Positions 7,218 through 52,070 of a stretch of 64,000 bases of DNA are shown here, piece by piece (position 1 is the stretch's first letter; every line of letters begins with the position of its first letter). The position numbers and the translations under genes were made by a program. Source of the stretch: Leuctra nigra (Eukaryota > Arthropoda > Insecta > Plecoptera > Leuctridae); NCBI GenBank assembly GCA_934045905.1, contig OW203768.1, positions 30,409,060 through 30,473,059 of the forward strand, in the 5' to 3' direction. The notes beneath the pieces were generated by a model. That model was not told where the DNA came from, did not search any database, and worked only from the letters and a program-made list of their open reading frames with translations.

Positions 7218-7449
7218 GGCAATACTCAACCAAGGTCAACCAACCCCCTATCACTAGCTCCCACTAGCGAGACTCGGCGCGTGCGCATGCGCACACATTT
7301 TCAAGGTCATGTAGATGCGTCATTCCATGCTCAGGCAATACTCAACCAAGGTCAACCAACCCCCTATCACTAGCTCCCACTAGCGAGACTCGGCGCGTGC
7401 GCATGCGCACACATTTTCAAGGTCATGTAGATGCGTCATTCCATGCTCA
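7218..7449. repeat. 116-bp tandem duplication (two copies)
   Basis: 7218-7333 and 7334-7449 are essentially identical direct copies. Each contains the palindrome GTGCGCATGCGCAC and the string ACTCGGCGCGTGC. The identity implies a recent duplication. Confidence 0.95.
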
Positions 7450-8117
7450 GCAGCCAACCAGCTGGCACCCCCATACACTCTTTGGCTAGCACTGACAGCT
7501 GACGTACAAAGAAAACAGTGCGATTATTTCTATTTCGTGGTACTTTAGACACAGATCGAGGAAATTTTCGTGGAATATATACTCGGAATCGGAAAATGTT
7601 GCAAAACACATGTTTGGGACAAAATCGCGTGAAATCGCGAGAATTCGTCAATATCGCGTCAAAACACAAATTTCGCGAAAATTCGCGAGAATAAGATACA
7701 TATATTTGGAATCAGGAGTGTATGAAACGTAAAGATATGACAGAAAATTCATGTTTCTAAACATTTCGCGTTTATCGCGGAAACCATAAATAACTGGCCC
7801 TGATAACCTAATTTGTAAATAACCACAGAAAGTCCATATTCTCGAGTTGCACACTTTTGTGATGATCTAATCAAGCTCTATCAATTGCCATTTGACTTAA
7901 GTCAACTTATACAGTTAAATTGAAGTAATCTCTTACACAATGACTCAATGTCACTATTACAAATATGTTTGGATGAAAGCAGAAATACTGGTTTTCAAGA
8001 ATTATTAAAATTAACTTCCGTGCTTCTGCCTCCCATGTACAGATATGTATTGTCTAGAAGTAAGTGCCGGCGGCGTTTCAATGCAATGAATAGTTTAAGC
8101 TTAACAACAGTTACGTC
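7450..8117. other. No recognisable gene; TCGCG-rich patch
   Basis: Between about 7620 and 7790 the pentamer TCGCG/CGCGA occurs at least seven times, including TCGCGAGAATT and TTCGCGAGAATA, in otherwise AT-rich sequence. No coding recognised. This could be a promoter-like motif cluster or degenerate repeat. Confidence 0.4.
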
Positions 8118-18181: not shown

Positions 18182-18239
<58 letters not shown>

Positions 18240-18249
18240 TGTCATCGTT

Positions 18250-18281
<32 letters not shown>

Positions 18282-18367
18282 TGTCATCATCATCGTCATC
18301 ATCATCAACATCGTCATCATCGTCATCATCATCATCATCATCATACTCATCATCATCATCATCATCA

Positions 18368-18430
<63 letters not shown>

Positions 18431-18484
18431 ACGTCATCGTCGCGTCATCGTCATCGTCATCGTCATCGTCTTCGTCATCATCAT
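18178..18484 (+). repeat. TCATCG / TCA microsatellite (~307 bp)
   Basis: Runs of the hexamer TCATCG grade into TCA trinucleotides in the middle and back again. All three plus frames and one minus frame are open over it (poly-Ser, poly-His/Arg, Met-Thr), which is a by-product of the repeat and not evidence of a gene. Confidence 0.95.
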
Positions 18485-30952: not shown

Positions 30953-31097
30953 ATGAATGAGTGGACAGCAAGAATGATTCGGCTAGATTCTGTTTCTCTG
31001 CGGATAAGAATAGTGTTGCAGTTTGTGGAAGACAAGTATAAGATGAAGGAAGGAGAGGGATGTTTTGACTTGATATTGAGCTCTTTGTCATCACTTG
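30953..31097 (+). CDS. Odorant receptor exon 1 (cytoplasmic N terminus)
   Basis: ATG at 30953 opens MNEWTARMIRLDSV and ends FDLILSSLSSL with a split codon (phase 1) at a GTAAGG donor (31098). Joining to exon 2 gives SSLGLWKAQ, the conserved region just before TM1. The start is chosen because it is the first Met of the only frame that splices correctly. Intron 1 (31098-31524) contains nothing recognisable. Confidence 0.85.
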
Positions 31098-31524
31098 GTA
31101 AGGCATGAACGTATACTAAAATATCATTGAGCAATATTGAACTTAAAGTTTCGTTTGATGAGTGTGTACAGATTTTAACCCACAAATTTAGACCATAGAC
31201 CATATTTTCGACACAAATTCAGTCAACATAATGATAAATTATTTTTTTCCTGAATTTTTACAGGATATAATAAATAATGTATTTTGCTGCACAACAATTT
31301 TATTAAAATTCATATGTGGTTTTAATTTAATTGACTAAATGTACACTAGAGTACAAATATAACATAAATCGCAAAGCTAAAGTGATTTTCAATGCATATT
31401 TATTAGGCATCGATATTCAATACTTTATATTTCAAAGCGATTGAATGAAATTATGCCCTCCAGTTGAAATATTATTCGTCAATGTAAAAATTTAATGCTT
31501 AATGCTGGAGTTCACCTTTTCCAG

Positions 31525-31968
31525 GCCTCTGGAAGGCTCAATGCGAACCACCTAACAGGTTAAGAAACATTATTAGAAATACAATCCTCTCATTTATGTT
31601 CATCTTCGGCAACTACTTGTGGATGGTTGCATATCCCATGGGCGTCTACAAGTACATTCACAATGTACTAAACCTTCTGGAACAATTCATAATCGGTTTC
31701 TCTTGGTGGCTGGTAGCTACTAAATGCAGCTGCATCATATTCCAACGCGCTGGTTTCAAGCGGTTGGTCGAGGGAATGGAAAAGATGTTCAAGAGAAGTG
31801 TTCAAGGGTGGTTCAAGGTGACGAGTGGGAACAGAAGATGATGAAGAAGACGCTAATGATGAGTAAACTGATCACTTCAGTGACTCTTGCTTCTGTGCGG
31901 TGGTTTATGGGCAGTATCATGATTCCCATGCTGCTGTACTTCTGGATGAAAAGGGAAATGTTTATTAG
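31525..31968 (+). CDS. Odorant receptor exon 2 (TM1-TM3), with 11-bp frameshifting duplication
   Basis: The acceptor TTCACCTTTTCCAG precedes 31525. The frame reads LWKAQCEPPNRLRN..., a first hydrophobic segment (FMFIFGNYLWMVAY), a second (FIIGFSWWLVATKCSCIIF), then GMEKMFKRSVQ. At 31800-31820 GTTCAAGGGTG is followed by GTTCAAGGTG, a near-perfect tandem duplication that shifts the frame by 11 bases. Past it the family continues in another frame (GDEWEQKMMKKTLMMSKL, then TM3 VRWFMGSIMIPMLLYFW) to a phase-2 GTAACT donor. Intron 2 (31969-32603) holds a poly-G run (about 32250-32262) and no gene. Confidence 0.85.
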
Positions 31969-32603
31969 GTAACTATATCTACATTAAAATAATCTATACA
32001 ACAGTTATATTTTTTTTCTCTAAAAGAAAATCAAATCAAACAATTCGTCGTTGAAATGCAGTGTTATATAAAAAGTCAAAAATTTAGCAAACGATTCAAA
32101 ATATATTTTTAAAATTAAATCTAGGACATTTATAAAATGCTGTTCAATATTGTCCGTATGTAACGAGCTAACATCGATGTGCCATTTTTTATAGCGTATT
32201 TGATAACTACTTTTCAGCAGCGTACTTACTTTTTTTTTTGGAATGAGAGGGGGGGGGGGGGGCGATGGAAGACATTTCTTCTGTTATACAACACAAGGTC
32301 TTCCGGGGATTTTAATTAGTCTTGATATTTACTAGTTGTGACATATTAGCCTAATCTATACGGCCTAATACATGAATGTTTAGGCATATTAGGCCAATAA
32401 TAACATTTCCGAAAATTCTACCTGAATGATGTTGGTGAAGAAACTTTACCTAATACCTGGTAGGTAGTGTGATGTGCCTCTTCATCAACATAGGTACACA
32501 TTCTTATTTCTTAACATATTATTATGTTTCATGGTGTATTTTAAGTCAAATAAAAAATTTAGAAATAGTTTCGATTGACAGTAAATGTATACAATTATTT
32601 CAG

Positions 32604-35600
32604 TGGCTGGTTTCCCTTCGATGAAACAAAATCCCCGTACCTTGAATTCACATTATTCATGTACGGATTTGTCGATGGCGTTGGACTTGTAATGATAGTT
32701 TACTTCGACACATTCATGATGATGCTGCTCATCCAAATCATCGTCCAGCTCCGAGATCTTCGCCACAGTCTGCTGAATATCAGACAGATCGCAGCTGACA
32801 GAGTCGACATCAGACACATGTTCAGACGCAGCGAGGAGAGAACACGAGCAGCCTTGAGATGGAGGACTCTGGTCGGTAGACTACATCATGGCAGTCAAGG
32901 ACAAGTGCAAGGGAGACATTTAGATCAGATGCCAGTGGACAGAGTGGATATCAGACACTTGTTCAGACGCAGCGAGGAGAGAACACGAGCAGCCTTGAGA
33001 TGGAGGACTCTGGTCGGTAGACTACATGGCAGTCAAGGACAAGTGCAAGGGAGACAATTAGATCAGATGCCAGTGGACAGAGTGGATATCAGACACATGT
33101 TCAGACGCAGCGAGGAGAGAACACGAGCAGCCTTTAGGTGGAGGACTCTGGTCGGTAGACTACATCATGGCAGTCAAGGACAAGTGCAAGGGAGACATTT
33201 AGATCAGATGCCAGTGGACAGAGTGGATATCAGACACATGTTCAGACGCAGCGAGGAGAGAACACGAGCAGCCTTTAGGTGGAGGACTCTGGTCGGTAGA
33301 CTACATCATGGCAGTCAAGGACAAGTGCAAGGGAGACATTTAGATCAGATGCCAGTGGACAGAGTGGATATCAGACACATGTTCAGACGCAGCGAGGAGA
33401 GAACACGAGCAGCCTTTAGGTGGAGGACTCTGGTCGGTAGACTACATCATGGCAGTCAAGGACAAGTGCAAGGGAGACATTTAGATCAGATGCCAGTGGA
33501 CAGAGTGGATATCAGACACGTGTTCAGACGCAGCGAGGAGAGAACACGAGCAGCCTTTAGGTGGAGGACTCTGGTCGGTAGACTACATCATGGCAGTCAA
33601 GGACAAGTGCAAGGGAGACATTTAGATCAGATGCCAGTGGACAGAGTCGACATCAGACACATGTTTAGACGTGAGGAGAGAACACGAGCAGCCTTTAGGT
33701 GGAGGACTCTGGTCGGTAGACTACATCATGGCAGTCAAGGACAAGTGCAAGGGAGACATTTAGATCAGATGCCAGTGGACAGAGTGGATATCAGACACTT
33801 GTTCAGACGCAGCGAGGAGAGAACACGAGCAGCCTTTAGGTGGAGGACTCTGGTCGGTAGACTACATCATGGCAGTCAAGGACAAGTGCAAGGGAGACAT
33901 TTAGATCAGATGCCAGTGGACAGAGTGGACATCAGACACATGTTTAGACGTGAGGAGAGACCACGAGCAGCCTTTAGGTGGAGGACTCTGGTCGGTAGAC
34001 TACATGGCAGTCAAGGACAAGTGCAAGGGAGACATTTAGATCAGATGCCAGTTGACAGAGTCGACATCAGACATATGTTTAGACGTGAGGAGAGAACACG
34101 AGCAGCCTTGAGATGGAGGACTCTGGTCGGTAGACTACATGGCAGTCAAGGACAAGTGCAAGGGAGACATTTAGATCAGATGCCAGTGGACAGAGTGGAT
34201 ATCAGACACTTGTTCAGGCGGGAGGAGAGAACACGAGCAGCCTTTAGGTGGAGGACTCTGGTCGGTAGACTACATGGCAGTCAAGGACAAGTGCAAGGGA
34301 GACATTTAGATCAGATGCCAGTTGACAGAGTCGACATCAGACACATGTTCAGACGCAGCGAGGAGAGAACACGAGCAGCCTTAAGGTGGAGGACTCTGGT
34401 CGGTAGACTACATGGCAGTCAAGGACAAGTGCAAGGGAGACATTTAGATCAGATGCCAGTGGACAGAGTGGATATCAGACACTTGTTCAGGCGTGAGGAG
34501 AGAACACGAGCAGCCTTTAGGTGGAGGACTCTGGTCGGTAGACTACATCATGGCAGTCAAGGACAAGTGCAAGGGAGACATTTAGATCAGATGCCAGTTG
34601 ACAGAGTGGATATCAGACACTTGTTCAGGCGTGAGGAGAGAACACGAGCAGCCTTTAGGTGGAGGACTCTGGTCGGTAGACTACATGGCAGTCAAGGACA
34701 AGTGCAAGGGAGACATTTATATCAGATGCCAGTGGACAGAGTGGATATCAGACACTTGTTCAGGCGTGAGGAGAGAACACGAGCAGCCTTTAGGTGGAGG
34801 ACTCTGGTCGGTAGACTACATCATGGCAGTCAAGGACAAGTGCAAGGGAGACATTTAGATCAGATGCCAGTTGACAGAGTGGATATCAGAAACTTGTTCA
34901 GGCGTGAGGAGAGAACATGAGCAGCCTTTAGGTGGAGGACTCTGGTCGGTAGACTACATGGCAGTCAAGGACAAGTGCAAGGGAGACATTTAGATCAGAT
35001 GCCAGTTGACAGAGTGGATATCAGACACATGTTTAGACGTGAGGAGAGAACACGAGCAGCCTTTAGGTGGAGGACTCTGGTCGGTAGACTACATGGCAGT
35101 CAAGGACAAGTGCAAGGGAGACATTTAGATCAGATGCCAGTTGACAGAGTGGATATCAGACACATGTTTAGACGTGAGGAGAGAACACGAGCAGCCTTTA
35201 GGTGGAGGACTCTGGTCGGTAGACTACATGGCAGTCAAGGACAAGTGCAAGGGAGACATTTAGATCAGATGCCAGTTGACAGAGTGGATATCAGACACAT
35301 GTTCAGACGTGAGGAGAGAACACGAGCAGCCTTTAGGTGGAGGACTCTGGTCGGTAGACTACATGGCAGTCAAGGACAAGTGCAAGGGAGACATTTAGAT
35401 CAGATGCCAGTGGACAGAGTGGATATCAGACACATATTTAGACGTGAGAAGAGAACACGAGCAGCCTTTAGGTGGAGGACTCTGGTCGGTAGACTACATG
35501 GCAGTCAAGGACAAGTGCAAGGGAGACATTTAGATCAGATGCCAGTTGACAGATTGGATATCAGACACATGTTAAGACGTGAGGAGAGAACACGAGCAGC

Positions 35601-38600
35601 CTTAAGGTGGAGGACTCTGGTCGGTAGACTACATGGCAGTCAAGGACAAGTGCAAGGGAGACATTTAGATCAGATGCCAGTTGACAGAGTGGATATCAGA
35701 CACATGTTCAGACGTGAGGAGAGAACACGAGCAGCCTTTAGGTGGAGGACTCTGGTCGGTAGACTACATGGCAGTCAAGGACAAGTGCAAGGGAGACATT
35801 TAGATCAGATGCCAGTGGACAGAGTGGATATCAGACACTTGTTCAGACGCAGCGAGGAGAGAACACGAGCAGCCTTATGGTGGAGGACTCTGGTCGGTAG
35901 ACTACATGGCAGTCAAGGACAAGTGCAAGGGAGACATTTAGATCAGATGCCAGTGGGCAGAGTGGATATCAGACACTTGTTCAGACGCAGCGAGGAGAGA
36001 ACACGAGCAGCCTTTAGGTGGAGGACTCTGGTCGGTAGACTACATCATGGCAGTCAAGGACAAGTGCAAGGAAGACATTTAGATCAGATGCCAGTTGACA
36101 GAGTGGATATCAGACACTTGTTCAGACGCAGCGAGGAGAGAACACGAGCAGCCTTTAGGTGGAGGACTCTGGTCGGTAGACTACATGGCAGTCAAGGACA
36201 AGTGCAAGGGAGACATTTAGATCAGATGCCAGTGGACAGAGTGGATATCAGACACATGTTCAGACGCAGCGAGGAGAGAACACGAGCAGCCTTTAGGTGG
36301 AGGACTTTGGTCGGTAGACTACATGGCAGTCAAGGACAAGTGCAAGGGAGACATTTAGATCAGATGCCAGTGGACAGAGTGGATATCAGACACATGTTTA
36401 GACGTGAGGAGAGAACACGAGCAGCCTTGAGATAGAGGACTCTGGTCGGTAGACTACATGGCAGTCAAGGACAAGTGCAAGGGAGACATTTAGATCAGAT
36501 GCCAGTGGACAGAGTGGATATCAGACACTTGTTCAGACGCAGCGAGGAGAGAACACGAGCAGCCTTTAGTTGGAGGACTCTGGTCGGTAGACTACATCAT
36601 GGCAGTCAAGGACAAGTGCAAGGGAGACATTTAGATCTGATGCCAGTGGACAGAGTGGATATCAGACACATGTTTAGACGTGAGGAGAGAACACGAGCAG
36701 CCTTGAGATGGAGGACTCTGGTCGGTAGACTACATGGCAGTCAAGGACAAGTGCAAGGGAGACATTTAGATCAGATGCCAGTGGACAGAGTGGATATCAG
36801 ACACTTGTTCAGACGCAGCGAGGAGAGAACACGAGCAGCCTTTAGGTGGAGGACTCTGGTCGGTAGACTACATGGCAGTCAAGGACAAGTGCAAGGGAGA
36901 CATTTAGATCAGATGCCAGTTGACAGAGTGGATATCAGACACTTGTTCAGACGCAGCGAGGAGAGAACACGACCAGCCTTTAGGTGGAGGACTCTGGTCG
37001 GTAGACTACATGGCAGTCAAGGACAAGTGCAAGGGAGACATTTAGATCAGATGCCAGTTGACAGAGTGGATATCAGACACTTGTTCAGGCGTGAGGAGAG
37101 AACACGAGCAGCCTTTAGGTGGAGGACTCTGGTCGGTAGACTACATGGCAGTCAAGGACAAGTGCAAGGGAGACATTTAGATCAGATGCCAGTGGACAGA
37201 GTGGATATCAGACACTTGTTCAGACGCAGCGAGGAGAGAACACGAGCAGCCTTTAGGTGGAGGACTCTGGTCGGTAGACTACATGGCAGTCAAGGACAAG
37301 TGCAAGGGAGACATTTAGATCAGATGCCAGTGGACAGAGTGGATATCAGACACTTGTTCAGGCGTGAGGAGAGAACACGAGCAGCCTTTAGGTGGAGGAC
37401 TCTGGTCGGTAGACTACATGGCAGTCAAGGACAAGTGCAAGGGAGACATTTAGATCAGATGCCAGTGGACAGAGTGGATATCAGACACTTGTTCAGACGC
37501 AGCGAGGAGAGAACACGAGCAGCCTTTAGGTGGAGGACTCTGGTCGGTAGACTACATGGCAGTCAAGGACAAGTGCAAGGGAGACATTTAGATCAGATGC
37601 CAGTGGACAGAGTCGACATCAGACACATGTTCAGACGCAGCGAGGAGAGAACACGAGCAGCCTTTAGGTGGAGGACTCTGGTCGGTAGACTACATGGCAG
37701 TCAAGGACAAGTGCAAGGGAGACATTTAGATCAGATGCCAGTGGACAGAGTGGATATCAGACACTTGTTCAGGCGTGAGGAGAGAACACGAGCAGCCTTT
37801 AGGTGGAGGACTCTGGTCGGTAGACTACATGGCAGTCAAGGACAAGTGCAAGGGAGACATTTAGATCAGATGCCAGTTAACAGAGTGGATATCAGACACT
37901 TGTTCAGACGCAGCGAGGAGAGAACACGAGCAGCCTTTAGGTGGAGGACTCTGGTCGGTAGACTACATCATGGCAGTCAAGGACAAGTGCAAGGGAGACA
38001 TTTAGATCAGATGCCAGTTGACAGAGTGGATATCAGACACTTGTTTAGACGCAGCGAGGAGAGAACACGAGCAGCCTTTAGGTGGAGGACTCTGGTCGGT
38101 AGACTACATGGCAGTCAAGGACAAGTGCAAGGGAGACATTTAGATCAGATGCCAGTGGACAGAGTGGATATCAGACACTTGTTCAGACGCAGCGAGGAGA
38201 GAACACGAGCAGCCTTTAGGTGGAGGACTCTGGTCGGTAGACTACATCATGGCAGTCAAGGACAAGTGCAAGGGAGACATTTAGATCAGATGCCAGTTGA
38301 CAGAGTGGATATCAGACACATGTTTAGACGTGAGGAGAGAACACGAGCAGCCTTAAGGTGGAGGACTCTGGTCGGTAGACTACATGGCAGTCAAGGACAA
38401 GTGCAAGAGAGACATTTAGATCAGATGCCAGTGGACAGAGTGGATATCAGACACTTGTTCAGACGCAGCGAGGAGAGAACACGAGCAGCCTTTAGGTGGA
38501 GGACTCTGGTCGGTAGACTACATGGCAGTCAAGGACAAGTGCAAGGGAGACATTTAGATCAGATGCCAGTTAACAGAGTGGATATCAGACACTTGTTCAG

Positions 38601-41600
38601 ACGCAGCGAGGAGAGAACACGAGCAGCCTTTAGGTGGAGGACTCTGGTCGGTAGACTACATGGCAGGCAAGGACAAGTGCAAGGGAGACATTTAGATCAG
38701 ATGCCAGTGGACAGAGTGGATATCAGACACTTGTTCAGACGCAGCGAGGAGAGAACACGAGCAGCCTTTAGGTGGAGGACTCTGGTCGGTAGACTACATG
38801 GCAGTCAAGGACAAGTGCAAGGGAGACATTTAGATCAGATGCCAGTTGACAGAGTGGATATCAGACACATGTTCAGACGTGAGGAGAGAACACGAGCAGC
38901 CTTTAGGTGGAGGACTCTGGTCGGTAGACTACATGGCAGTCAAGGACAAGTGCAAGGGAGACATTTAGATCAGATGCCAGTGGACAGAGTGGATATCAGA
39001 CACATATTTAGACGTGAGAAGAGAACACGAGCAGCCTTTAGGTGGAGGACTCTGGTCGGTAGACTACATGGTAGTCAAGGACAAGTGCAAGGGAGACATT
39101 TAGATCAGATGCCAGTTGACAGATTGGATATCAGACACATGTTTAGACGTGAGGAGAGAACACGAGCAGCCTTAAGGTGGAGGACTCTGGTCGGTAGACT
39201 ACATGGCAGTCAAGGACAAGTGCAAGGGAGACATTTAGATCAGATGCCAGTTGACAGAGTGGATATCAGACACATGTTCAGACGTGAGGAGAGAACACGA
39301 GCAGCCTTTAGGTGGAGGACTCTGGTCGGTAGACTACATGGCAGTCAAGGACAAGTGCAAGGGAGACATTTAGATCAGATGCCAGTGGACAGAGTGGATA
39401 TCAGACACTTGTTCAGACGCAGCGAGGAGAGAACACGAGCAGCCTTATGGTGGAGGACTCTGGTCGGTAGACTACATGGCAGTCAAGGACAAGTGCAAGG
39501 GAGACATTTAGATCAGATGCCAGTGGGCAGAGTGGATATCAGACACTTGTTCAGACGCAGCGAGGAGAGAACACGAGCAGCCTTTAGGTGGAGGACTCTG
39601 GTCGGTAGACTACATCATGGCAGTCAAGGACAAGTGCAAGGAAGACATTTAGATCAGATGCCAGTTGACAGAGTGGATATCAGACACTTGTTCAGACGCA
39701 GCGAGGAGAGAACACGAGCAGCCTTTAGGTGGAGGACTCTGGTCGGTAGACTACATGGCAGTCAAGGACAAGTGCAAGGGAGACATTTAGATCAGATGCC
39801 AGTGGACAGAGTGGATATCAGACACATGTTCAGACGCAGCGAGGAGAGAACACGAGCAGCCTTTAGGTGGAGGACTTTGGTCGGTAGACTACATGGCAGT
39901 CAAGGACAAGTGCAAGGGAGACATTTAGATCAGATGCCAGTGGACAGAGTGGATATCAGACACATGTTTAGACGTGAGGAGAGAACACGAGCAGCCTTGA
40001 GATAGAGGACTCTGGTCGGTAGACTACATGGCAGTCAAGGACAAGTGCAAGGGAGACATTTAGATCAGATGCCAGTGGACAGAGTGGATATCAGACACTT
40101 GTTCAGACGCAGCGAGGAGAGAACACGAGCAGCCTTTAGTTGGAGGACTCTGGTCGGTAGACTACATCATGGCAGTCAAGGACAAGTGCAAGGGAGACAT
40201 TTAGATCTGATGCCAGTGGACAGAGTGGATATCAGACACATGTTTAGACGTGAGGAGAGAACACGAGCAGCCTTGAGATGGAGGACTCTGGTCGGTAGAC
40301 TACATGGCAGTCAAGGACAAGTGCAAGGGAGACATTTAGATCAGATGCCAGTGGACAGAGTGGATATCAGACACTTGTTCAGACGCAGCGAGGAGAGAAC
40401 ACGAGCAGCCTTTAGGTGGAGGACTCTGGTCGGTAGACTACATGGCAGTCAAGGACAAGTGCAAGGGAGACATTTAGATCAGATGCCAGTTGACAGAGTG
40501 GATATCAGACACTTGTTCAGACGCAGCGAGGAGAGAACACGACCAGCCTTTAGGTGGAGGACTCTGGTCGGTAGACTACATGGCAGTCAAGGACAAGTGC
40601 AAGGGAGACATTTAGATCAGATGCCAGTTGACAGAGTGGATATCAGACACTTGTTCAGGCGTGAGGAGAGAACACGAGCAGCCTTTAGGTGGAGGACTCT
40701 GGTCGGTAGACTACATGGCAGTCAAGGACAAGTGCAAGGGAGACATTTAGATCAGATGCCAGTGGACAGAGTGGATATCAGACACTTGTTCAGACGCAGC
40801 GAGGAGAGAACACGAGCAGCCTTTAGGTGGAGGACTCTGGTCGGTAGACTACATGGCAGTCAAGGACAAGTGCAAGGGAGACATTTAGATCAGATGCCAG
40901 TGGACAGAGTGGATATCAGACACTTGTTCAGGCGTGAGGAGAGAACACGAGCAGCCTTTAGGTGGAGGACTCTGGTCGGTAGACTACATGGCAGTCAAGG
41001 ACAAGTGCAAGGGAGACATTTAGATCAGATGCCAGTGGACAGAGTGGATATCAGACACTTGTTCAGACGCAGCGAGGAGAGAACACGAGCAGCCTTTAGG
41101 TGGAGGACTCTGGTCGGTAGACTACATGGCAGTCAAGGACAAGTGCAAGGGAGACATTTAGATCAGATGCCAGTGGACAGAGTCGACATCAGACACATGT
41201 TCAGACGCAGCGAGGAGAGAACACGAGCAGCCTTTAGGTGGAGGACTCTGGTCGGTAGACTACATGGCAGTCAAGGACAAGTGCAAGGGAGACATTTAGA
41301 TCAGATGCCAGTGGACAGAGTGGATATCAGACACTTGTTCAGGCGTGAGGAGAGAACACGAGCAGCCTTTAGGTGGAGGACTCTGGTCGGTAGACTACAT
41401 GGCAGTCAAGGACAAGTGCAAGGGAGACATTTAGATCAGATGCCAGTTAACAGAGTGGATATCAGACACTTGTTCAGACGCAGCGAGGAGAGAACACGAG
41501 CAGCCTTTAGGTGGAGGACTCTGGTCGGTAGACTACATCATGGCAGTCAAGGACAAGTGCAAGGGAGACATTTAGATCAGATGCCAGTTGACAGAGTGGA

Positions 41601-44600
41601 TATCAGACACTTGTTTAGACGCAGCGAGGAGAGAACACGAGCAGCCTTTAGGTGGAGGACTCTGGTCGGTAGACTACATGGCAGTCAAGGACAAGTGCAA
41701 GGGAGACATTTAGATCAGATGCCAGTGGACAGAGTGGATATCAGACACTTGTTCAGACGCAGCGAGGAGAGAACACGAGCAGCCTTTAGGTGGAGGACTC
41801 TGGTCGGTAGACTACATCATGGCAGTCAAGGACAAGTGCAAGGGAGACATTTAGATCAGATGCCAGTTGACAGAGTGGATATCAGACACATGTTTAGACG
41901 TGAGGAGAGAACACGAGCAGCCTTAAGGTGGAGGACTCTGGTCGGTAGACTACATGGCAGTCAAGGACAAGTGCAAGAGAGACATTTAGATCAGATGCCA
42001 GTGGACAGAGTGGATATCAGACACTTGTTCAGACGCAGCGAGGAGAGAACACGAGCAGCCTTTAGGTGGAGGACTCTGGTCGGTAGACTACATGGCAGTC
42101 AAGGACAAGTGCAAGGGAGACATTTAGATCAGATGCCAGTTAACAGAGTGGATATCAGACACTTGTTCAGACGCAGCGAGGAGAGAACACGAGCAGCCTT
42201 TAGGTGGAGGACTCTGGTCGGTAGACTACATGGCAGGCAAGGACAAGTGCAAGGGAGACATTTAGATCAGATGCCAGTGGACAGAGTGGATATCAGACAC
42301 TTGTTCAGACGCAGCGAGGAGAGAACACGAGCAGCCTTTAGGTGGAGGACTCTGGTCGGTAGACTACATGGCAGTCAAGGACAAGTGCAAGGGAGACATT
42401 TAGATCAGATGCCAGTGGACAGAGTGGATATCAGACACTTGTTCAGACGCAGCGAGGAGAGAACACGAGCGGCCTTTAGGTGGAGGACTCTGGTCGGTAG
42501 ACTACATGGCAGTCAAGGACAAGTGCAAGGGAGACATTTAGATCAGATGCCAGTGGACAGAGTGGATATCAGACACATGTTCAGACGCAGCGAGGAGAGA
42601 ACACGAGCAGCCTTTAGGTGGAGGACTTTGGTCGGTAGACTACATGGCAGTCAAGGACAAGTGCAAGGGAGACATTTAGATCAGATGCCAGTGGACAGAG
42701 TGGATATCAGACACATGTTTAGACGTGAGGAGAGAACACGAGCAGCCTTGAGATAGAGGACTCTGGTCGGTAGACTACATGGCAGTCAAGGACAAGTGCA
42801 AGGGAGACATTTAGATCAGATGCCAGTGGACAGAGTGGATATCAGACACTTGTTCAGACGCAGCGAGGAGAGAACACGAGCAGCCTTTAGTTGGAGGACT
42901 CTGGTCGGTAGACTACATCATGGCAGTCAAGGACAAGTGCAAGGGAGACATTTAGATCTGATGCCAGTGGACAGAGTGGATATCAGACACATGTTTAGAC
43001 GTGAGGAGAGAACACGAGCAGCCTTGAGATGGAGGACTCTGGTCGGTAGACTACATGGCAGTCAAGGACAAGTGCAAGGGAGACATTTAGATCAGATGCC
43101 AGTGGACAGAGTGGATATCAGACACTTGTTCAGACGCAGCGAGGAGAGAACACGAGCAGCCTTTAGGTGGAGGACTCTGGTCGGTAGACTACATGGCAGT
43201 CAAGGACAAGTGCAAGGGAGACATTTAGATCAGATGCCAGTTGACAGAGTGGATATCAGACACTTGTTCAGACGCAGCGAGGAGAGAACACGACCAGCCT
43301 TTAGGTGGAGGACTCTGGTCGGTAGACTACATGGCAGTCAAGGACAAGTGCAAGGGAGACATTTAGATCAGATGCCAGTTGACAGAGTGGATATCAGACA
43401 CTTGTTCAGGCGTGAGGAGAGAACACGAGCAGCCTTTAGGTGGAGGACTCTGGTCGGTAGACTACATGGCAGTCAAGGACAAGTGCAAGGGAGACATTTA
43501 GATCAGATGCCAGTGGACAGAGTGGATATCAGACACTTGTTCAGACGCAGCGAGGAGAGAACACGAGCAGCCTTTAGGTGGAGGACTCTGGTCGGTAGAC
43601 TACATGGCAGTCAAGGACAAGTGCAAGGGAGACATTTAGATCAGATGCCAGTGGACAGAGTGGATATCAGACACTTGTTCAGGCGTGAGGAGAGAACACG
43701 AGCAGCCTTTAGGTGGAGGACTCTGGTCGGTAGACTACATGGCAGTCAAGGACAAGTGCAAGGGAGACATTTAGATCAGATGCCAGTGGACAGAGTGGAT
43801 ATCAGACACTTGTTCAGACGCAGCGAGGAGAGAACACGAGCAGCCTTTAGGTGGAGGACTCTGGTCGGTAGACTACATGGCAGTCAAGGACAAGTGCAAG
43901 GGAGACATTTAGATCAGATGCCAGTGGACAGAGTCGACATCAGACACATGTTCAGACGCAGCGAGGAGAGAACACGAGCAGCCTTTAGGTGGAGGACTCT
44001 GGTCGGTAGACTACATGGCAGTCAAGGACAAGTGCAAGGGAGACATTTAGATCAGATGCCAGTGGACAGAGTGGATATCAGACACTTGTTCAGGCGTGAG
44101 GAGAGAACACGAGCAGCCTTTAGGTGGAGGACTCTGGTCGGTAGACTACATGGCAGTCAAGGACAAGTGCAAGGGAGACATTTAGATCAGATGCCAGTTA
44201 ACAGAGTGGATATCAGACACTTGTTCAGACGCAGCGAGGAGAGAACACGAGCAGCCTTTAGGTGGAGGACTCTGGTCGGTAGACTACATCATGGCAGTCA
44301 AGGACAAGTGCAAGGGAGACATTTAGATCAGATGCCAGTTGACAGAGTGGATATCAGACACTTGTTTAGACGCAGCGAGGAGAGAACACGAGCAGCCTTT
44401 AGGTGGAGGACTCTGGTCGGTAGACTACATGGCAGTCAAGGACAAGTGCAAGGGAGACATTTAGATCAGATGCCAGTGGACAGAGTGGATATCAGACACT
44501 TGTTCAGACGCAGCGAGGAGAGAACACGAGCAGCCTTTAGGTGGAGGACTCTGGTCGGTAGACTACATCATGGCAGTCAAGGACAAGTGCAAGGGAGACA

Positions 44601-47088
44601 TTTAGATCAGATGCCAGTTGACAGAGTGGATATCAGACACATGTTTAGACGTGAGGAGAGAACACGAGCAGCCTTAAGGTGGAGGACTCTGGTCGGTAGA
44701 CTACATGGCAGTCAAGGACAAGTGCAAGAGAGACATTTAGGTCAGATGCCAGTGGACAGAGTGGATATCAGACACTTGTTCAGACGCAGCGAGGAGAGAA
44801 CACGAGCAGCCTTTAGGTGGAGGACTCTGGTCGGTAGACTACATGGCAGTCAAGGACAAGTGCAAGGGAGACATTTAGATCAGATGCCAGTGGACAGAGT
44901 GGATATCAGACACTTGTTCAGACGCAGCGAGGAGAGAACACGAGCAGCCTTTAGGTGGAGGACTCTGGTCGGTAGACTACATGGCAGGCAAGGACAAGTG
45001 CAAGGGAGACATTTAGATCAGATGCCAGTGGACAGAGTGGATATCAGACACTTGTTCAGACGCAGCGAGGAGAGAACACGAGCAGCCTTTAGGTGGAGGA
45101 CTCTGGTCGGTAGACTACATGGCAGTCAAGGACAAGTGCAAGGGAGACATTTAGATCAGATGCCAGTGGACAGAGTGGATATCAGACACTTGTTCAGACG
45201 CAGCGAGGAGAGAACACGAGCGGCCTTTAGGTGGAGGACTCTGGTCGGTAGACTACATGGCAGTCAAGGACAAGTGCAAGGGAGACATTTAGATCAGATG
45301 CCAGTGGACAGAGTGGATATCAGACACTTGTTCAGACGCAGCGAGGAGAGAACACGAGCAGCCTTTAGGTGGAGGACTCTGGTCGGTAGACTACATGGCA
45401 GTCAAGGACAAGTGCAAGGGAGACATTTAGATCAGATGCCAGTTGACAGAGTCGACATCAGACACTTGTTCAGACGCAGCGAGGAGAGAACACGAGCAGC
45501 CTTTAGGTGGAGGACTCTGGTCGGTAGACTACATGGCAGTCAAGGACAAGTGCAAGGGAGACATTTAGATCAGATGCCAGTTGACAGAGTGGATATCAGA
45601 CACTTGTTCAGGCGTGAGGAGAGAACACGACCAGCCTTGATATGGAGGACTCTGGTCGGTAGACTACATGGCAGTCAAGGACAAGTGCAAGAGAGACATT
45701 TAGATCAGATGCCAGTGGACAGAGTGGATATCAGACACTTGTTCAGACGCAGCGAGGAGAGAACACGAGCAGCCTTTAGGTGGAGGTTTCTGGTCGGTAG
45801 ACTACATGGCAGTCAAGGACAAGTGCAAGGGAGACATTTAGATCAGATGCCAGTGGACAGAGTGGATATCAGACACTTGTTCAGACGCAGCGAGGAGAGA
45901 ACACGAGCAGCCTTTAGGTGGAGGACTCTGGTCGGTGGACTACATGGCAGTCAAGGACAAGTGCAAGGGAGACATTTAGATCAGATGCCAGTGGACAGAG
46001 TGGATATCAGACACTTGTTCAGACGCAGCGAGGAGAGAACACGAGCAGCCTTTAGGTGGAGGACTCTGGTCGGTAGACTACATGGCAGTCAAGGACAAGT
46101 GCAAGGGAAACAGTTAGAACAGATGCCAGTGGACAGAGTGGATATCAGACACTTGTTCAGACGCAGCGAGGAGAGAACACGAGCAGCCTTTAGGTGGAGG
46201 ACTCTGGTCGGTAGTCTACATGGCAGTCAAGGACAAGTGCAAGGGAGACATTTAGATCAGATGCCAGTGGACAGAGTGGATATCAGACACTTGTTCAGAC
46301 GCAGCGAGGAGAGAACACGAGCAGCCTTTAGGTGGAGGACTCTGGTCGGTAGACTACATGGCAGTCAAGGACAAGTGCAAGGGAGACATTTAGATCAGAT
46401 GCCAGTGGACAGAGTGGATATCAGACACTTGTTCAGACGCAGCGAGGAGAGAACACGAGCAGCCTTTAGGTGGAGGACTCTGGTCGGTAGACTACATGGC
46501 AGTCAAGGACAAGTGCAAGGGAGACATTTAGATCAGATGCCAGTGGACAGAGTGGATATCAGACACTTGTTCAGACGCAGCGAGGAGAGAACACGAGCAG
46601 CCTTTAGGTGGAGGACTCTGGTCGGTAGACTACATGGCAGTCAAGGACAAGTGCAAGAGAGACATTTAGATCAGATGCCAGTGGACAGAGTGGATATCAG
46701 ACACTTGTTCAGGCGTGTGGAGAGAACACGACCAGCCTTTAGGTGGAGGACTCTGGTCGGTAGACTACATGGCAGTCAAGGACAAGTGCAAGGGAGACAT
46801 TTAGATCAGATGCCAGTGGACAGAGTGGATATCAGACACTTGTTCAGACGCAGCGAGGAGAGAACACGAGCAGCCTTTAGGTGGAGGACTCTGGTCGGTA
46901 GACTACATGGCAGTCAAGGACAAGTGCAAGGGAGACATTTAGATCAGATGCCAGTTGACAGAGTGGATATCAGACACTTGTTCAGGCGTGAGGAGAGAAC
47001 ACGAGCAGCCTTTAGGTGGAGGACTCTGGTCGGTAGACTACATGGCAGTCAAGGACAAGTGCAAGGGAAACAGTTAGAACAGATGCCC
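32604..47088 (+). CDS. Odorant receptor exon 3 (TM4 plus giant repeat-expanded loop)
   Basis: The acceptor ACAATTATTTCAG precedes 32604; one base completes the split Ser codon. It encodes GWFPFDETKSPYLEF (extracellular loop 2), TM4 (about 32650-32755) and LRDLRHSLLNIRQIA, then enters the 104-unit array at 32797. The frame is continuous for 14.5 kb except for TGA at 34918 and TAG at 36433, 40003 and 42754. It ends ...QLEQMP at 47088 before a GTGAGC donor in phase 0, matching the phase-0 start of exon 4. The donor call is by consensus and phase only; earlier donors within the array are possible. Confidence 0.7.
32797..47088 (+). repeat. Tandem coding minisatellite, ~104 units of 135/138/141 bp
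   Basis: The unit encodes 45-47 residues, starting around DRVDIRH(L/M)FRR and containing EERTRAAFRWRTLVGRL, GSQGQVQG and HLDQMPV. It is strongly basic (about ten Arg). Length variation comes from just two 3-bp differences: CATCATGG versus CATGG (HH/H) and CGCAGCGAGG versus CGTGAGG (RRSEER/RREER), so every unit keeps frame. I counted 27 units before the TAG at 36433, then 26, 20 and 31 in the following segments. Edge units are the most divergent (GRQLDQ in unit 2; GKQLEQ in the last). The other two frames contain a stop in essentially every unit. No known domain recognised. Confidence 0.95.
35205..45321 (+). repeat. Higher-order repeats within the array (3570-bp and 2751-bp spacings)
   Basis: Segment ~35.2-38.85 kb recurs at ~38.85-42.4 kb with an exact 3570-bp offset; the marker unit HIFRREKR is at 35433 and 39003, and TAG at 36433 and 40003. 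Segment ~39.7-42.57 kb recurs with an exact 2751-bp offset up to ~45.32 kb (TAG at 42754). A run of 17 consecutive variant units is thus present three times: 36436-38846, 40006-42416 and 42757-45167. Copies differ by only a few substitutions, for example HMLRR versus HMFRR and VNR versus VDR. Confidence 0.9.
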
Positions 47089-47104
47089 GTGAGCTCTGTT
47101 TTAA

Positions 47105-48135
47105 AAAAGTTATTTAAAAAAGTTATTAAATGCCGATGATCCTCACTTTCATAATGTAAGAAATATTGAACAAGAAATGACTCAATGTATTGAAACGCTT
47201 GAACTCACAAATTGCATTAAAGTTGATAATCGAATTACTGGCCGAAAACTACGAAATGCTATGAGAGAAAAATCATTTCAAGAATGGGTTGATTTGCCAC
47301 ATAAAGGACGTGGAGTGGAAGTATTCAGAGAAACGACAAGAGCCAATAAGTGGTTACACTCTAAGGAGGGACTGTCTTCTTCTCAGTGGATAAATAACAT
47401 CAAGATGTCTGTTAATCTCGCCGCCGTTCGTGCCGTACCAGGAAGATCTTTCGAGAACACCCGTTGCCGTCAACCAGGCTGCAATGAGTATGAAACCCTA
47501 CCTTATGTTCTCGGAGGTTGTCTGAAGGGAGAACTGTTGAGAATTAACAGACACAACACAGTGAGGAGCCTGTTAGCAGACTCGTTCCGAGCAAATAAGT
47601 GGGAGGTACATGAAGAAATTTCTTGTGTTTCGACTACTGGCTCTTTGAAGAGAATAGACATAATAGCCATTCGAAGAGACCGGAAAAAAGTCCTTATTCT
47701 CGACCCAACCATTAGATTCGAGCAAGGGGGATCACAAGCGGAGGACGTGAACAAGGAAAAACAAGATCATTACGTCGATTGCATCCCCGATCTTGCTCAA
47801 AGATACAAAATTAAAGAACAATACTGGAGCGTTACCGGTCTCCTTTTAGGAGCTAGAGCTTCAATTCCGGATTTTTTTACAAAATTTCTTAAATCACATT
47901 TCATTTTTTCTTTGGTTCTCGTAGATCAAATAGTTTTATCAATTTTAAAAGATTCGTCTAGTATATTGCATAATCATTTATATAATAATTCATCTTAGTT
48001 TGTAGGTATATTAAGTCTTTACTTAATTAATATTTGTCACATTTTGTATCCATTAGAATTATACTATTGTAAGCATGCTGGATCCTAGTGGTCATCCTTG
48101 TATTGGACAGCTGTCATTTGTTTTATAATAAATGA
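47105..48135 (+). mobile_element. 5'-truncated R2/R4-type LINE (zinc knuckle + restriction-like endonuclease)
   Basis: The open frame 47177-47998 (readable back to about 47120) is the C-terminal part of a non-LTR retrotransposon that uses a restriction-enzyme-like endonuclease. It has a zinc knuckle, C-x4-C (CRQPGC) then ETLPYVLGGC, in which the usual His is Tyr; HNTVRSLLADSF; and the endonuclease core RIDIIAI...VLILDPTIRFE, with the R/K-x-D...D arrangement (14 residues between the two Asp). The reverse transcriptase is missing. A short 3' UTR follows up to an ATAATAAATG near 48127. It lies wholly inside receptor intron 3, within about 20 bases of both splice sites. The His-to-Tyr change and the truncation argue that it is dead. 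Confidence 0.8.
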
Positions 48136-48148
48136 ATTTCTCTCTCAG

Positions 48149-48219
48149 AAGAGGGAAGTGGACATAGAGATGGAGGCCATCATGAAGGATTGTGAAGATC
48201 GTCATTGTCATCTGATAAG
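48149..48219 (+). CDS. Odorant receptor exon 4 (end of intracellular loop 2)
   Basis: The acceptor TTTCTCTCTCAG precedes 48149; the exon encodes KREVDIEMEAIMKDCEDRHC then HLIR, phase 0 in, phase 2 out (donor GTAATA at 48220). The block I..C..RH.HLIR is the conserved pre-TM5 segment of insect odorant receptors. Confidence 0.9.
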
Positions 48220-48254
48220 GTAATATTGTTATTTGATTTGTTTGCTTTTTATTG

Positions 48255-49364
48255 TCAAGCGAGCGTAGCGAGCGACTCCACTTGAAACTTATGGCTCGAA
48301 TCTCTGTTTTTTTTTTTATCTGTCTGTCTGTGTATTTCGCATTACATTTTAAACGAAGTCATGGATCTGGCCAATTTTTTTCACAAAAGATTCATTACTA
48401 TCCACTGCAGAAACCTAATGATTTTCAGCAAAATCGATCCATTAATTTCATCGGAAACTTGATTTGTAGTTAGTAGTAAGTACTTGGCTTGGCAATATGA
48501 AAGAAACGTCAACTCTGTGTGCCAATAAAACTGGAATTGGTTAACCGACAAATTTTGCAATGCCATTGGCACCAGCATTATAAGTGTATTTTGACAAACC
48601 TTTAATGAACTTTAAGAGTAATATACATTTTACTGACATTTGTATGCTTAATTTGTAATTGCCTGTAGCTATACACGACCGTTTGACCAAACAAATAGTC
48701 TTCTGTAAATCTGATTAAACTCATATTTTGCATGATCATTAAGACCAACATTATCTCTTATTTTACAAATTTTCAGCCCAATCAGTCAAGAACACAATGC
48801 ACTTATTGACATTTTTGATAACTGTCAGAAATGACATATCAAATGAATGTTTCCACTGCCAAATGGATCTGATTTGCTTTATGTAGGAAACAAAGTGTAT
48901 AGATTGCTGTTCTAAAGTTTCAATATTTCAATATTTCAATAGGCCATTTAAAGCCCCATTTACACGGTGCAATTTCTTGAACAACTTCTGTGCCACAGTG
49001 GTTCTGCTCGTGCGCAGTGTCACTTTTGAGATGAAAAAGTGACTCTGCACATGTGCAGAACTTTTGTGGCACAGAAGTTGTTAACGCATGCGCAGATCCC
49101 TATTTTTGGTGTCGTGACGTCACTCCACCCACAGCATTCTCGAAAACACGTTCATTTTTAACATACACACCAAATAGACACTACACACTAGACGGCTGTG
49201 GACCTGTCAGTTTTTTAATCATGCGCACTGACTTTCTTAAATGACCTATTCAATGTGGATGTATATATGTTTCTGTGCGTTTGGTACGGAATACCTGTTG
49301 AAGAATTTACACGTACGTATACCAGTGCTCGCTCATCAACGCGTTACACTGAGCGTTTTCCTAG
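48255..49364 (+). mobile_element. Helentron/HINE-like element in receptor intron 4
   Basis: 5' end TCAAGCGAGCGTAGCGAGCG at about 48255; 3' end GCTCGCTCATCAACGCGTTA, then CACTGAGCG and TTTTCCTAG ending at 49364, followed by T. The interior carries the family block CTCATATTTTGCATGATCAT. A separate foldback (48980-49082) has inserted into, or is carried by, this copy. Confidence 0.75.
48980..49082. repeat. ~103-bp imperfect hairpin inside the intron-4 element
   Basis: AACAACTTCTGTGCCACAG on the left pairs with TGTGGCACAGAAGTTGTT on the right; the inner arms GTCACTTTT and AAAAAGTGAC close the hairpin. Absent from the other Helentron-like copies, so it is probably a small MITE. Confidence 0.8.
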
Positions 49365-49557
49365 TTTAAGAAATTACGGTTTGTTAAACTTTACTTAATA
49401 CATTGTAATGTTCGGGACTTGGTCTCCGGCGGTTCCAGATTCAATTTCCTGCCATACTTCCGTTTCATTAGTGTAGAATATTTTACAACTGTTGAAGAGA
49501 CTTAAATCAATTGTTCTTGCAATTATTCTTGCATAATTAACTTATTCTTCTCTGCAG

Positions 49558-49657
49558 ATACGTGCAAGATTTCAGGAAGCAACTTCAGATCGTTTACTTG
49601 GCTCATACTACATGCAGCTTGATTGTCACTGGATTGATTTTATTGTACATTAGTGTG
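49558..49657 (+). CDS. Odorant receptor exon 5 (TM5)
   Basis: After TTCTTCTCTGCAG; encodes YVQDFRKQLQIVYLAHTTCS then LIVTGLILLYISV (TM5). Phase 2 in, phase 0 out, donor GTAAGC. Confidence 0.9.
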
Positions 49658-49775
49658 GTAAGCCAAGAACAAATATCGTACCTATGAAATGATGCGAAGC
49701 TAATGCTTTAAATAGCATTTTCCTGTTCGAGACGAACTTTCTTCCAAGTTCACAATCTGTTTTGCCTTGTTTCAG

Positions 49776-49880
49776 ATGCCTTCATGGGAAACAAACCGCT
49801 TATATTTTATCATGCTTCTTAATGCTTTCTTAATGGAACTTTTCGCATTGTGTTACTTTTCTGATAAAATTACCGAAGAA
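49776..49880 (+). CDS. Odorant receptor exon 6 (TM6)
   Basis: After CCTTGTTTCAG; 35 codons from MPSWETNRLYFIMLL through ELFALCYFSDKITEE, containing TM6. Phase 0 in and out, donor GTAAGT. Confidence 0.92.
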
Positions 49881-50189
49881 GTAAGTGGATAACTATCTTG
49901 TTCGCTCCAGATGTCAAATCCTTCCATCAAAGGAGTCCAGATCTTTCAACTTTGCCTTTGTCCGTCTCTCCTCCTCCATACACTCTACATTGCCATATCG
50001 AAAAAGTCTTCTTTTTGACAAGAGATCCGTGACTTCATCGTTTCACATCTTTGGTTTCACCAATCTTCTATCCTCATTCCTGATGTGCTTCATTCTTGAA
50101 ACCTTACAGCTCCTCCAATAATTGTTCTGTCGATAATTTCGTTATATTTTGTTCTATTGTTCTAAACAAGTCTTGTCATCATGTTACAG

Positions 50190-50345
50190 AGTTTGCTGGT
50201 GAAGGACGCCATCTTCGACTGTGATTGGTTGGAAGCGTCTGCGAGTTTCAAGCAAGCCATGAGGATCATGATGTCAAGAGCCAATCAGCCGATACTTGTG
50301 AAGATTGGAGGATTTGTTTTACTGTCTTGTGAAACATTCTTCAGT
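50190..50345 (+). CDS. Odorant receptor exon 7 (loop 3 and start of TM7)
   Basis: After ATCATGTTACAG; 52 codons. Contains the family signature AIFDCDWLEAS, SFKQAMRIMMSRANQP and the TM7 start KIGGFVLLSCETFFS, corresponding to the best-conserved C-terminal region of 7tm_6 receptors. Phase 0 in and out, donor GTAAGT. Confidence 0.95.
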
Positions 50346-50700: not shown

Positions 50701-50829
50701 TTATTGGATGGTAATTATTAATGTGCGCAAATAAGTGAGTTTGAAAGCCATGATTGGAAATGGAAATTGTATTAAACCATTTTGGTCAGCCGCCAACCTC
50801 TGCCGTGAGTGTTTAGACTTTTTACATAT

Positions 50830-52070
50830 TATCAAACCCAGAATTGGTTCTGGGAAAAACATGATGTTTTAATAATTAAAACATCTGAAAAAACATGGGA
50901 ACAAACACAAGCTGTAGCAGAAGAAATGATGGTAAAAATTAAATCTTGGCTCGATCACAATTTACTAACTCTTAATGCCCTAAAGTCCATGTTCATCACT
51001 TTCACCCCTAGGAGTAACGCTCAGCCAACCGCTCTTAACTTGAAAATACATGTATCCGATTGTAACAGAACTAACTGCATATGCCATGAAATAATAAAAT
51101 CAAGCACAATTAGGTATTTGGGTATTATAGTTGACCAGCATTTAAATTGGCAAAATCATATTTCAAGTGTAGTGAGAAAATTAAGAATTACTCTCCCCAA
51201 ATTTTATAATCTTAGGAATGTCCTGAGCACAAATACTCTCCGAATGGTTTATTTCGCACTGGTTCAATCCGTTATACAATATGGAATTACCAGCTGGGGT
51301 GGCGCCTGTAGATCGCATGTAAAGGCAATATGCACTATTCAGAATACAGTCTTAAAAATTATGTATAAGAAAGATAGACGATTTAATACTATTCAGCTTT
51401 ACAATGAGACCAATGTTCTACCGTTAATAAAATTATTTGCAAAGTGTTTAATTAATCATGTTCATGTATATAAGGACCGGAAGGCATCTAATGAACTTAC
51501 AGATTCTACAACTAAAATTTCCACAAGATATAAGACCAATGAAAAATTAATTATTCAAAGAGTCAACTCCAGTTTTGGCCAAAGAAATGGGGCTTTCATT
51601 GGTCCTAAGTTATATAATTCTCTGCCTATTGATATTAGAAACACTTTGGTGTCGTCGTCAGCTTCTTATAAAATCTTTAAATCTAAGTTAAAAGTTTGGA
51701 TATTCAATACGCCTGTCTCATCTTTAAAAAGTATAATTTATGTGATGTAGTTTACCATTTGTATAATTAGCATTTTTTTCAGTTATATAATTAAAAATAC
51801 AATTATACTGATCACAATTGTTTTCAATATAATATCATGACCAATGTAGGGTTGTCTACATCTATATGCTCATTGTAATTAATTGTTTTACATCAGGACT
51901 TTGTATCTTATACCTATATGTTTTCTATTTGTATTTACATTACATTGTTCTAATTTTCCGCATGTACCTCCGCACAGGCCTTGGCTTATGGAGGTGCCAT
52001 GATTTTTATTGTATGACTATGTATGATGTGTGAATATAAAAAATAAATGAAATAAATGAAATAAAAATGT
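50830..52070 (+). mobile_element. 5'-truncated LINE (Jockey/CR1-type) 3' end
   Basis: The open frame to 51750 begins just after where the YADD catalytic box should be (VLIIKTSEKTWEQ) and continues through WLDHNLLTLNALKSMFITF, STIRYLGIIVDQHLNWQNHI, the LR.VYFALVQSVIQYGITSWGG block and a C-terminal NSLPIDIRN. These blocks mark the thumb and C-terminal region of Jockey/CR1-like reverse transcriptases. The 3' UTR ends in a short AATAAATGAA repeat (about 52041-52065), the kind of tail used by such LINEs. It lies about 130 bases after the receptor stop codon. Missing catalytic residues make it inactive. Confidence 0.85.

Follow-up and report, generated by a model that had tools for sequence, protein, structure and literature searches.

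Tandem repeats in intracellular loop 2 of odorant receptors of the stonefly Leuctra nigra, with a 104-unit coding array in an apparently dead gene

How does a single exon of an odorant receptor gene come to hold more than 14 kb of tandem repeat, and does such a gene still make a receptor? The question is raised by a stretch of 64,000 nucleotides from Leuctra nigra (GCA_934045905.1, contig OW203768.1, positions 30,409,060 to 30,473,059 of the forward strand), here called the window, in which an earlier note, made from the sequence alone, had described a minisatellite inside a receptor exon. We consider, with good confidence, that the gene in the window is best explained as the extreme, derelict case of repeat growth that has recurred in intracellular loop 2 (ICL2) across the receptor family. 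Insect odorant receptors are compact ligand-gated channels; the numbers of the transmembrane (TM) segments and the loop names of the window receptor follow the topology that we take to apply to it. Searches covered the whole assembly holding the window (536 Mb, 144 contigs, denoted by C-numbers) and score best candidates only, and the counts are lower bounds.

The repeat array and its reading frame

The array and its main internal features, all on the plus strand, are the following.

32797 to 47088, plus strand: coding minisatellite, 104 head-to-tail copies of an ICL2 segment, 44-47 codons each
34918 to 34920, plus strand: in-frame stop TGA, single
36433 to 36435, plus strand: in-frame stop TAG, the first of three copies (the others at 40003 and 42754)
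35575 to 38846, plus strand: multi-unit block, repeated exactly over 3,272 bp at 39145-42416
39721 to 41989, plus strand: multi-unit block, repeated exactly over 2,269 bp at 42472-44740

Tandem Repeats Finder places the repeat at 32797-47091 with a period of 138, 104.0 copies and 95% matches. Cutting the translated array into units also gives 104, in a total of 14,292 bp, which is divisible by three. The units are 141 bp (17), 138 bp (51), 135 bp (35) or, in the last unit only, 132 bp long, and just two types of indel occur among them, both of 3 bp: a serine codon found in 65 of the 104 units and a histidine codon found in 20. The receptor frame contains four stops, against 123 and 281 in the remaining frames of the plus strand. 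The earlier note had counted about 104 units of 45-47 codons in the receptor frame and had called the array a coding minisatellite; both statements hold, the units lying head to tail within an exon and in the frame of the gene, with lengths divisible by three and a single open exon at this place in the paralogues.

Mean pairwise identity between the units is 97.1%, with 48 distinct sequences showing graded divergence, and the plus strand of the array is 63% purine. The four stops go back to two nonsense mutations, one TGA and one TAG, the latter being a single mutation multiplied threefold along with blocks of units. Duplication of multi-kilobase blocks has contributed to the growth of the array. 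The same exact repeats could also be read as an assembly artefact, the 3.3-kb and 2.3-kb copies being false duplications within a shorter array, but we regard this as improbable in view of the 48 distinct units with their graded divergence and of another large array, 71 copies of 95 bp, which the same assembly contains in a paralogue.

The array is now evolving as it would without selection. Its 42 single-step variants, a count that leaves out three two-step variants, comprise 14 synonymous, 26 non-synonymous and 2 nonsense changes, where neutrality predicts about 25% synonymous, 70% non-synonymous and 4.6% nonsense. No frame-shifting indel occurs among the 104 units. This would agree with an early phase of growth constrained to keep the frame, but there are just two indel types to judge from.

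Matches of the array to the YjeF_N, MCM4_WHD, DUF7742 and Myb profiles were rejected, as the scores sum over repeats and the profiles are mostly covered in part. At the left edge, a possible seed of microhomology, matching in 8 of the last 14 bases, was likewise dismissed as weak. The structure predicted from a single sequence for exon 3 with four units has a mean predicted local distance difference test score of 58.8, with a confident TM4 helix and the units as low-confidence helices joined by linkers; it was not used as evidence.

Origin of the repeat unit

Two features mark the entry into the array.

32604 to 32796, plus strand: first part of exon 3, covering the TM4 segment and leading into ICL2
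32797 to 32937, plus strand: unit 1, aligned without a break to the ICL2 that three paralogues have in single copy

When aligned to solved receptors and to paralogues, the array starts after the TM4 segment, in ICL2, as had been claimed. A search of the genome with the unit, a check proposed in the earlier note for other odorant receptors of the species, returned three further matches, all of them in receptor paralogues (on C11, C1 and C5); the array itself is not among the matches listed. Unit 1 is 80-82% identical to these paralogues at the DNA level over 79-82 columns, and each paralogue has a single open frame running from the TM4 side via '..LLNIRQIAVARVDVRRMFRRNNEERTRAALRWRALF..' to '..KKEVDREMEVIMKNCVDRHVQLLR'. 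Because unit 1 aligns continuously with the single-copy ICL2 of the paralogues, the unit is the receptor's own loop, and the array is the ICL2-coding segment of the receptor itself, tandemly amplified to 104 copies within one exon. In 14 other aligned exon-3 sequences the loop is single-copy, uninterrupted, about 45-80 residues long by eye and weakly conserved; in one further receptor (L053) it is much shorter.

These alignments also bear on the idea that the array is an intronic satellite beside an ordinary exon, its frame being accidental. A unit length divisible by three has a chance of 1/3 of arising in this way, but unit 1 continues the exon and aligns with uninterrupted coding sequence, and the stops are as unevenly spread over the three frames as described above. 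Moreover, by a simple count, the purine-rich array offers no AG with more than 53% pyrimidines upstream, a measure on which the real exon-3 acceptor does no better. We find an intronic satellite scarcely credible.

The right edge of the array

The sequence that follows the array on the plus strand is made up as follows; splice points are marked by a slash here and below.

47089 to 47098, plus strand: remaining loop-coding sequence GTGAGCTCTG, taken for a splice donor in the earlier note
47099 to 47116, plus strand: junction filler preceding the R2-type insert
47117 to 48145, plus strand: 5′-truncated R2-type non-long-terminal-repeat (non-LTR) retrotransposon inside the exon
48146 to 48219, plus strand: remainder of the ancestral exon, coding for the end of ICL2, with donor AAG/GTAATA

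The array had been thought to end the exon with a consensus donor (GTGAGC at 47089) followed by an intron, and neither claim survives comparison with the paralogues. At this point they carry the coding sequence GTGACA.. and all three read through it as open, uninterrupted loop-coding sequence, and hence the 'donor' and 'intron 3' are not ancestral. Donor-like GT sites of similar score also occur in most units: by a rough donor matrix, GTGAGC scores 6.79, while the array has 20 GAC/GTGAGG sites at 7.36 and 101 CTG/GTCGGT sites at 5.95.

The insert at 47117-48145 has 41 matches in the genome besides its own, 97-100% identical and whole-length in 33 of the 41. Its reading frame matches R2-type proteins in the PDB at 7e-26 to 4e-06, the best being 9nl2, in the C-terminal region of R2. 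Homology to R2 proteins together with many near-identical copies marks it as a recent member of a multicopy R2-type family, truncated here. Two further copies that were read share sequence with each other upstream of the equivalent of 47117, where the window differs. Since copies elsewhere are near-identical and the two that were read extend upstream, a truncated R2-type element was inserted recently into a formerly continuous exon, and 'intron 3' is nearly all such a 5′-truncated insertion. Classic R2 resides in 28S ribosomal DNA, whereas the window copy lies in a receptor exon and its relatives on many contigs. Element and host together offer an acceptor, TTTCTCTCTCAG, and a neo-intron restoring phase 0 through it is possible.

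The receptor gene and its present state

The remaining exons of the gene, and the lesion in exon 2, are listed below.

30953 to 31097, plus strand: exon 1, from the start codon to donor TTG/GTAAGG
31525 to 31968, plus strand: exon 2, frame broken inside, located by tblastn and comparison with paralogues
31800 to 31818, plus strand: 11-bp tandem duplication, GTTCAAGG twice, 11 bp apart, shifting the frame of exon 2
49558 to 49657, plus strand: TM5 exon
49776 to 49880, plus strand: TM6 exon
50190 to 50345, plus strand: TM7 exon, the first ~90 bp of which match other receptor loci at 91-99% DNA identity among the matches listed

That the gene is an odorant receptor was rightly recognized. The joined exons (30953-50345, leaving out the array and reading across the frameshift) match the 7tm_6 profile PF02949 at 3e-42 (145.2 bits, cut-off 25.8) and the solved receptors OR10 (1.6e-10) and OR28 (3.6e-10), the alignments crossing the insertion site without the loop. 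The genome also contains paralogues with matching exons: a search with the joined protein gave 126 matches and a search with one exon 3 gave 150, the window's own included. Profile and paralogues agree in placing the gene in the insect odorant receptor (7tm_6) lineage. Elsewhere in the window no match to the receptor has an E value below 1, a protein database search for receptor relatives gave 3,458 candidates with none at E 0.001 or better, and receptor exon 8 was not located.

The duplication in exon 2, which the earlier note had overlooked, is absent from the three paralogues compared. In 717 bp outside the array, the ratio of non-synonymous to synonymous divergence (dN/dS) between the window gene and these paralogues is 0.20, 0.28 and 0.27 at dS 0.45-0.55; the values between the three paralogues themselves are 0.48-0.60. 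A low dN/dS maintained over so long a divergence indicates that the loss of the window gene is recent on that scale. With the reading frame of this assembly broken both in exon 2 and in the array, the frameshift, the stops and the insertion together lead us to expect no receptor from this haplotype. The copy is thus most likely dead after a long period of constraint, a judgement from sequence which bears out the last of three options offered earlier: a giant loop, removal of the array by splicing, or a recent casualty.

A functional gene would have either a giant basic ICL2 or an array that is mostly spliced out, from in-phase GT sites in the units to an acceptor at 48149. In its favour are the frame held over 104 units with 3-bp indels only, the donor-like sites in nearly every unit (CTG/GTCGGT, 101 copies, being in phase 0), the low dN/dS outside the array, and the open in-frame arrays of other receptors described below. 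Against it stand the exon-2 frameshift upstream of the array, the four stops, the recent R2-type copy in the exon, and array variants that occur at neutral proportions, stops included; we therefore judge function unlikely.

The paralogue on C11 (L004, 8164-8250) seems to be frameshifted in exon 2 as well, as two frames are needed in tblastn.

In-frame repeats in the same loop of other receptors

The ICL2 of other receptors carries in-frame repeats of two other units, of 12 and 33 amino acids (aa). A receptor at C5:38790865, whose joined exons match 7tm_6 at 1.6e-33, has 10.9 in-frame copies of a 36-bp unit in this loop. The 33-aa unit came to light in the survey that gave 150 matches to one exon 3: each of the six genes read there, which have long open frames, carries 7-17 units of it. 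These arrays start directly after '..LLNIR' and finish in the conserved end of the exon; the joined exons of one such gene, at C8:15423010, match 7tm_6 at 1e-31.

A search with the 33-aa unit gave 241 matches, the best 150 of which collapse to 67 loci on 10 contigs by our own clustering (rows on one contig, no more than 4 kb apart and in one open frame, counted as a locus; three rows on C12 merged). These 150 are 42-66 residues long without internal stop and lie in open frames of up to 1,090 residues. Two of the six survey genes (L056, L058) lie outside these 150 matches, add to the 67 and bring the total to at least 69.

Twenty-four loci were read in two sets of 12. The first, which takes in the six survey genes, is a biased set, ten loci having been picked for open-frame length or similarity and L067 and L068 as examples of short frames; a receptor exon-3 flank is present in 11 of the 12, and 10 are open to the exon end, with 17, 12, 9, 9, 10, 7, 29, 25, 11 and 9 units. 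The second is a random draw from the 57 listed loci unread until then: here too the receptor flank is present in 11 of 12, and in 10 the frame stays open from that flank across the array to the exon end, with 2 to 15.6 units (printed ends, by eye). Over both sets, a receptor exon-3 flank is present at 22 of the 24 loci, and at 20 the frame is open all the way from the flank, across 2-29 units, to the end of the exon. The earlier note had named no other odorant receptor with such an insertion. The one in the window is not unique, with repeats lying in frame in the same loop at 20 of 24 loci with the 33-aa unit and in the 12-aa receptor.

Matches of the 33-aa arrays to Baculo_RING, Microtub_bind and similar profiles were rejected, for here too the scores sum over repeats, mostly on partial profiles. 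L068 (C12:7579000-7581000) is a 19-copy array of the 33-aa unit with broken frames, to which a 200-bp period also fits, and is possibly a dead receptor. L073 and L079 (C11:23018100 and 23283300) are near-identical array-bearing exons about 265 kb apart, and about 269 kb separate the members of another listed pair, C11:23065465 and 23334838; two pairs so similarly spaced make a segmental or assembly duplication likely.

Selection on the arrays and exchange between genes

In the chosen 33-aa loci none of 75 single-step variants is a stop (P ~0.03 without constraint); this count includes last units and leaves out 3 of the 64 units that are not 33 aa long and 24 multi-step variants. A second count likewise has no stop among 74; it covers 112 units and leaves out L067 and L068, the last unit of each array, any unit of another length, and multi-step variants. 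In the random draw 11 of the 12 arrays have no stop. It is modestly supported by these counts that the open frame of the 33-aa arrays is kept more than their sequence.

In-frame arrays of the loop have units of 36, 99 and 132-141 bp, all divisible by three; arrays elsewhere in receptor genes have units of 95 bp, of 108 bp with a stop within the unit, or, in introns, of 64-66 bp. Loop units that are always multiples of three, where others need not be, would fit selection on what may persist inside the loop.

Between the six survey genes the mean DNA identity of the 33-aa units is 92.4-96.3%, nearly as high as within genes (94.5-97.2%), and their TM4 flanks share 25-45% of residues and 42-59% of DNA. 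By eye, the shared DNA begins at the same place in each of the six genes, some 20 bp ahead of unit one, and has a right edge that varies. Near-identical units beside divergent flanks suggest that the 33-aa arrays have been copied between unlinked receptors. Alternatively, the arrays might descend from a recent common ancestor without exchange, only the flanks having evolved very fast, which would accord with their position at the same point after LLNIR wherever the flank is seen. It would also require TM4 DNA to diverge to 42-59% next to whole units which, synonymous positions included, remain 92-96% identical between the six genes, and we hold it to be improbable.

A model of loop-repeat growth

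Our preferred reading, recurrent repeat growth in ICL2 with the window gene as its derelict extreme, would work as follows. The loop would tolerate frame-keeping insertions of very different lengths, so that minisatellites born there by slippage or unequal exchange would not be purged. The 33-aa cassettes would have spread among unlinked receptors via ectopic conversion or similar exchange. The window gene would have taken the same path with its own unit; after a recent loss of constraint its array would have run away and decayed, in whatever order relative to the frameshift, and in this haplotype it would make no working receptor. In its most specific form, which we put forward tentatively as one that may or may not hold in full, ICL2 is both landing and growth site; the 33-aa cassettes are copied between receptors, in frame, as two to about thirty units; dozens of receptors have long, rapidly changing basic cytosolic domains; and the window gene is the runaway end point with its own unit.

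A number of points weigh against this model. The absence of stops in the chosen loci (0/75) is biased, long open frames having been the criterion of choice; the random draw is less so, but it is small and stems from the best-scoring matches. The 112-unit count comprises 20 synonymous, 54 non-synonymous and 0 stop variants, a synonymous share near neutral with non-synonymous changes not reduced. Exchange between genes is deduced from identity alone. Some loci deviate: in L067 the fourth of five units contains a nonsense codon; L068 and L072 have no recognisable flank and are broken, L072 also having no open exon end; the array of L080 is open but the usual exon end is missing; and L073 and L079 may represent a single gene, doubled either in the genome itself or by the assembly. 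The death of the window gene refers to one assembled haplotype, and other alleles could be free of the lesions; even here, the predicted donor and acceptor would excise the transposon in phase, which leaves a spliced product conceivable.

The window array is of interest mainly as a lead to loop-repeat arrays throughout the receptor family: in one genome three unrelated units are tandemly repeated in ICL2, and one of the three occurs at no fewer than 69 loci and is near-identical between divergent receptors. The loop seems to tolerate, and may trade, repeat cassettes, as the sequences suggest. Such a genome opens three questions to testing: what cytosolic mass a receptor-Orco channel can bear, whether domains of this kind modulate trafficking or gating, and whether sequence can travel between unlinked genes of one family within minisatellites. 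The window itself offers a clear case of an exon-internal 104-unit array in an apparently dead gene.

Comparison with known repeat systems

No description of such arrays in odorant receptors was found among the titles and abstract openings that searches of open-licence papers listed. OR10 and OR28 (8v00, 8v3c) belong to the same family and the window receptor aligns with them across the insertion site, but they have no room for a repeat there. The variable number tandem repeat in exon 3 of DRD4, a dopamine receptor gene, has a coding unit of 48 bp, lies in intracellular loop 3 and is present in about 2-11 copies. Like the arrays described here, it is a minisatellite that keeps the frame within a cytosolic loop of a seven-helix receptor, with a copy number that varies there; unlike them, it concerns a single gene for a G-protein-coupled receptor, not an insect-type odorant receptor, and forms no family-wide arrays.

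The SpTransformer (Sp185/333) genes of the sea urchin (PMC5491942) are also a family with several types of repeat in a coding exon, but they lie in tight clusters and encode anti-pathogen proteins, and the repeats are not in a receptor loop. The 'mirage' minisatellites of the amphioxus Adh3 and globin genes are exon-derived tandem repeats, variable in copy number, proposed as a source of new introns and homogenised inside but less so at the edges (PMC3087553). Mirages span an exon-intron boundary, reportedly without disturbing splicing, and number 3 and 6 units in the globin case (PMC3087553), whereas the window array has 104 and, like the 33-aa and 12-aa arrays, is internal to the exon and in frame. 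The window unit is wholly exonic and does not cross a boundary with a splice signal; the 95-bp array on C5 and the 108-bp array in L041, described next, do. The 71 x 95-bp array of the TM5 exon and the 108-bp arrays of the TM7 exon fit the mirages closely.

Arrays grown from other receptor exons

A C5 paralogue of the window gene (L006/L007, C5:35410664-35417422) contains 71.1 copies of a 95-bp unit made up of the TM5 exon with its splice acceptor, a length that three does not divide. The last copy retains the donor, and exons 2, 3, 6 and 7 of the same paralogue each match in one piece. A short tract, TTGATTTTRTTGT, common to the intron end and the exon end of this array was set aside as weak and found by eye.

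The first ~90 bp of the TM7 exon are 91-99% identical in DNA among the best 150 of 209 matches. The segment is 95% identical at C1:53081995 and 97% at C10:11078189, where the neighbouring exon 2, assigned to the gene by position, has 36% and 35% of its residues in common with that of the window gene; exon 2 of receptors beyond the close paralogues shares 26-46%. Arrays of 108 bp that consist of the acceptor and these first ~90 bp occur in L041 (1042-2005, on C5), upstream of a full exon there, and at C4:8877596-8881990, C9:3395246-3398698, C10:3162259-3164836 and C10:3154044-3156405. Similar-looking intronic minisatellites of 64-66 bp are present in two paralogues of the window gene (L004 2956-4216 and C5:35408462-35410042).

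Other features of the window

An open frame of 313 codons (50809-51750, plus strand) lies within the next intron of the receptor; it resembles the end of a non-LTR reverse transcriptase, though no profile matches it above the cut-off. The stretch 18182-18484, raised in GC, consists of about fifty copies of TCATCG, and a 116-bp exact tandem duplication is found at 7218-7450.

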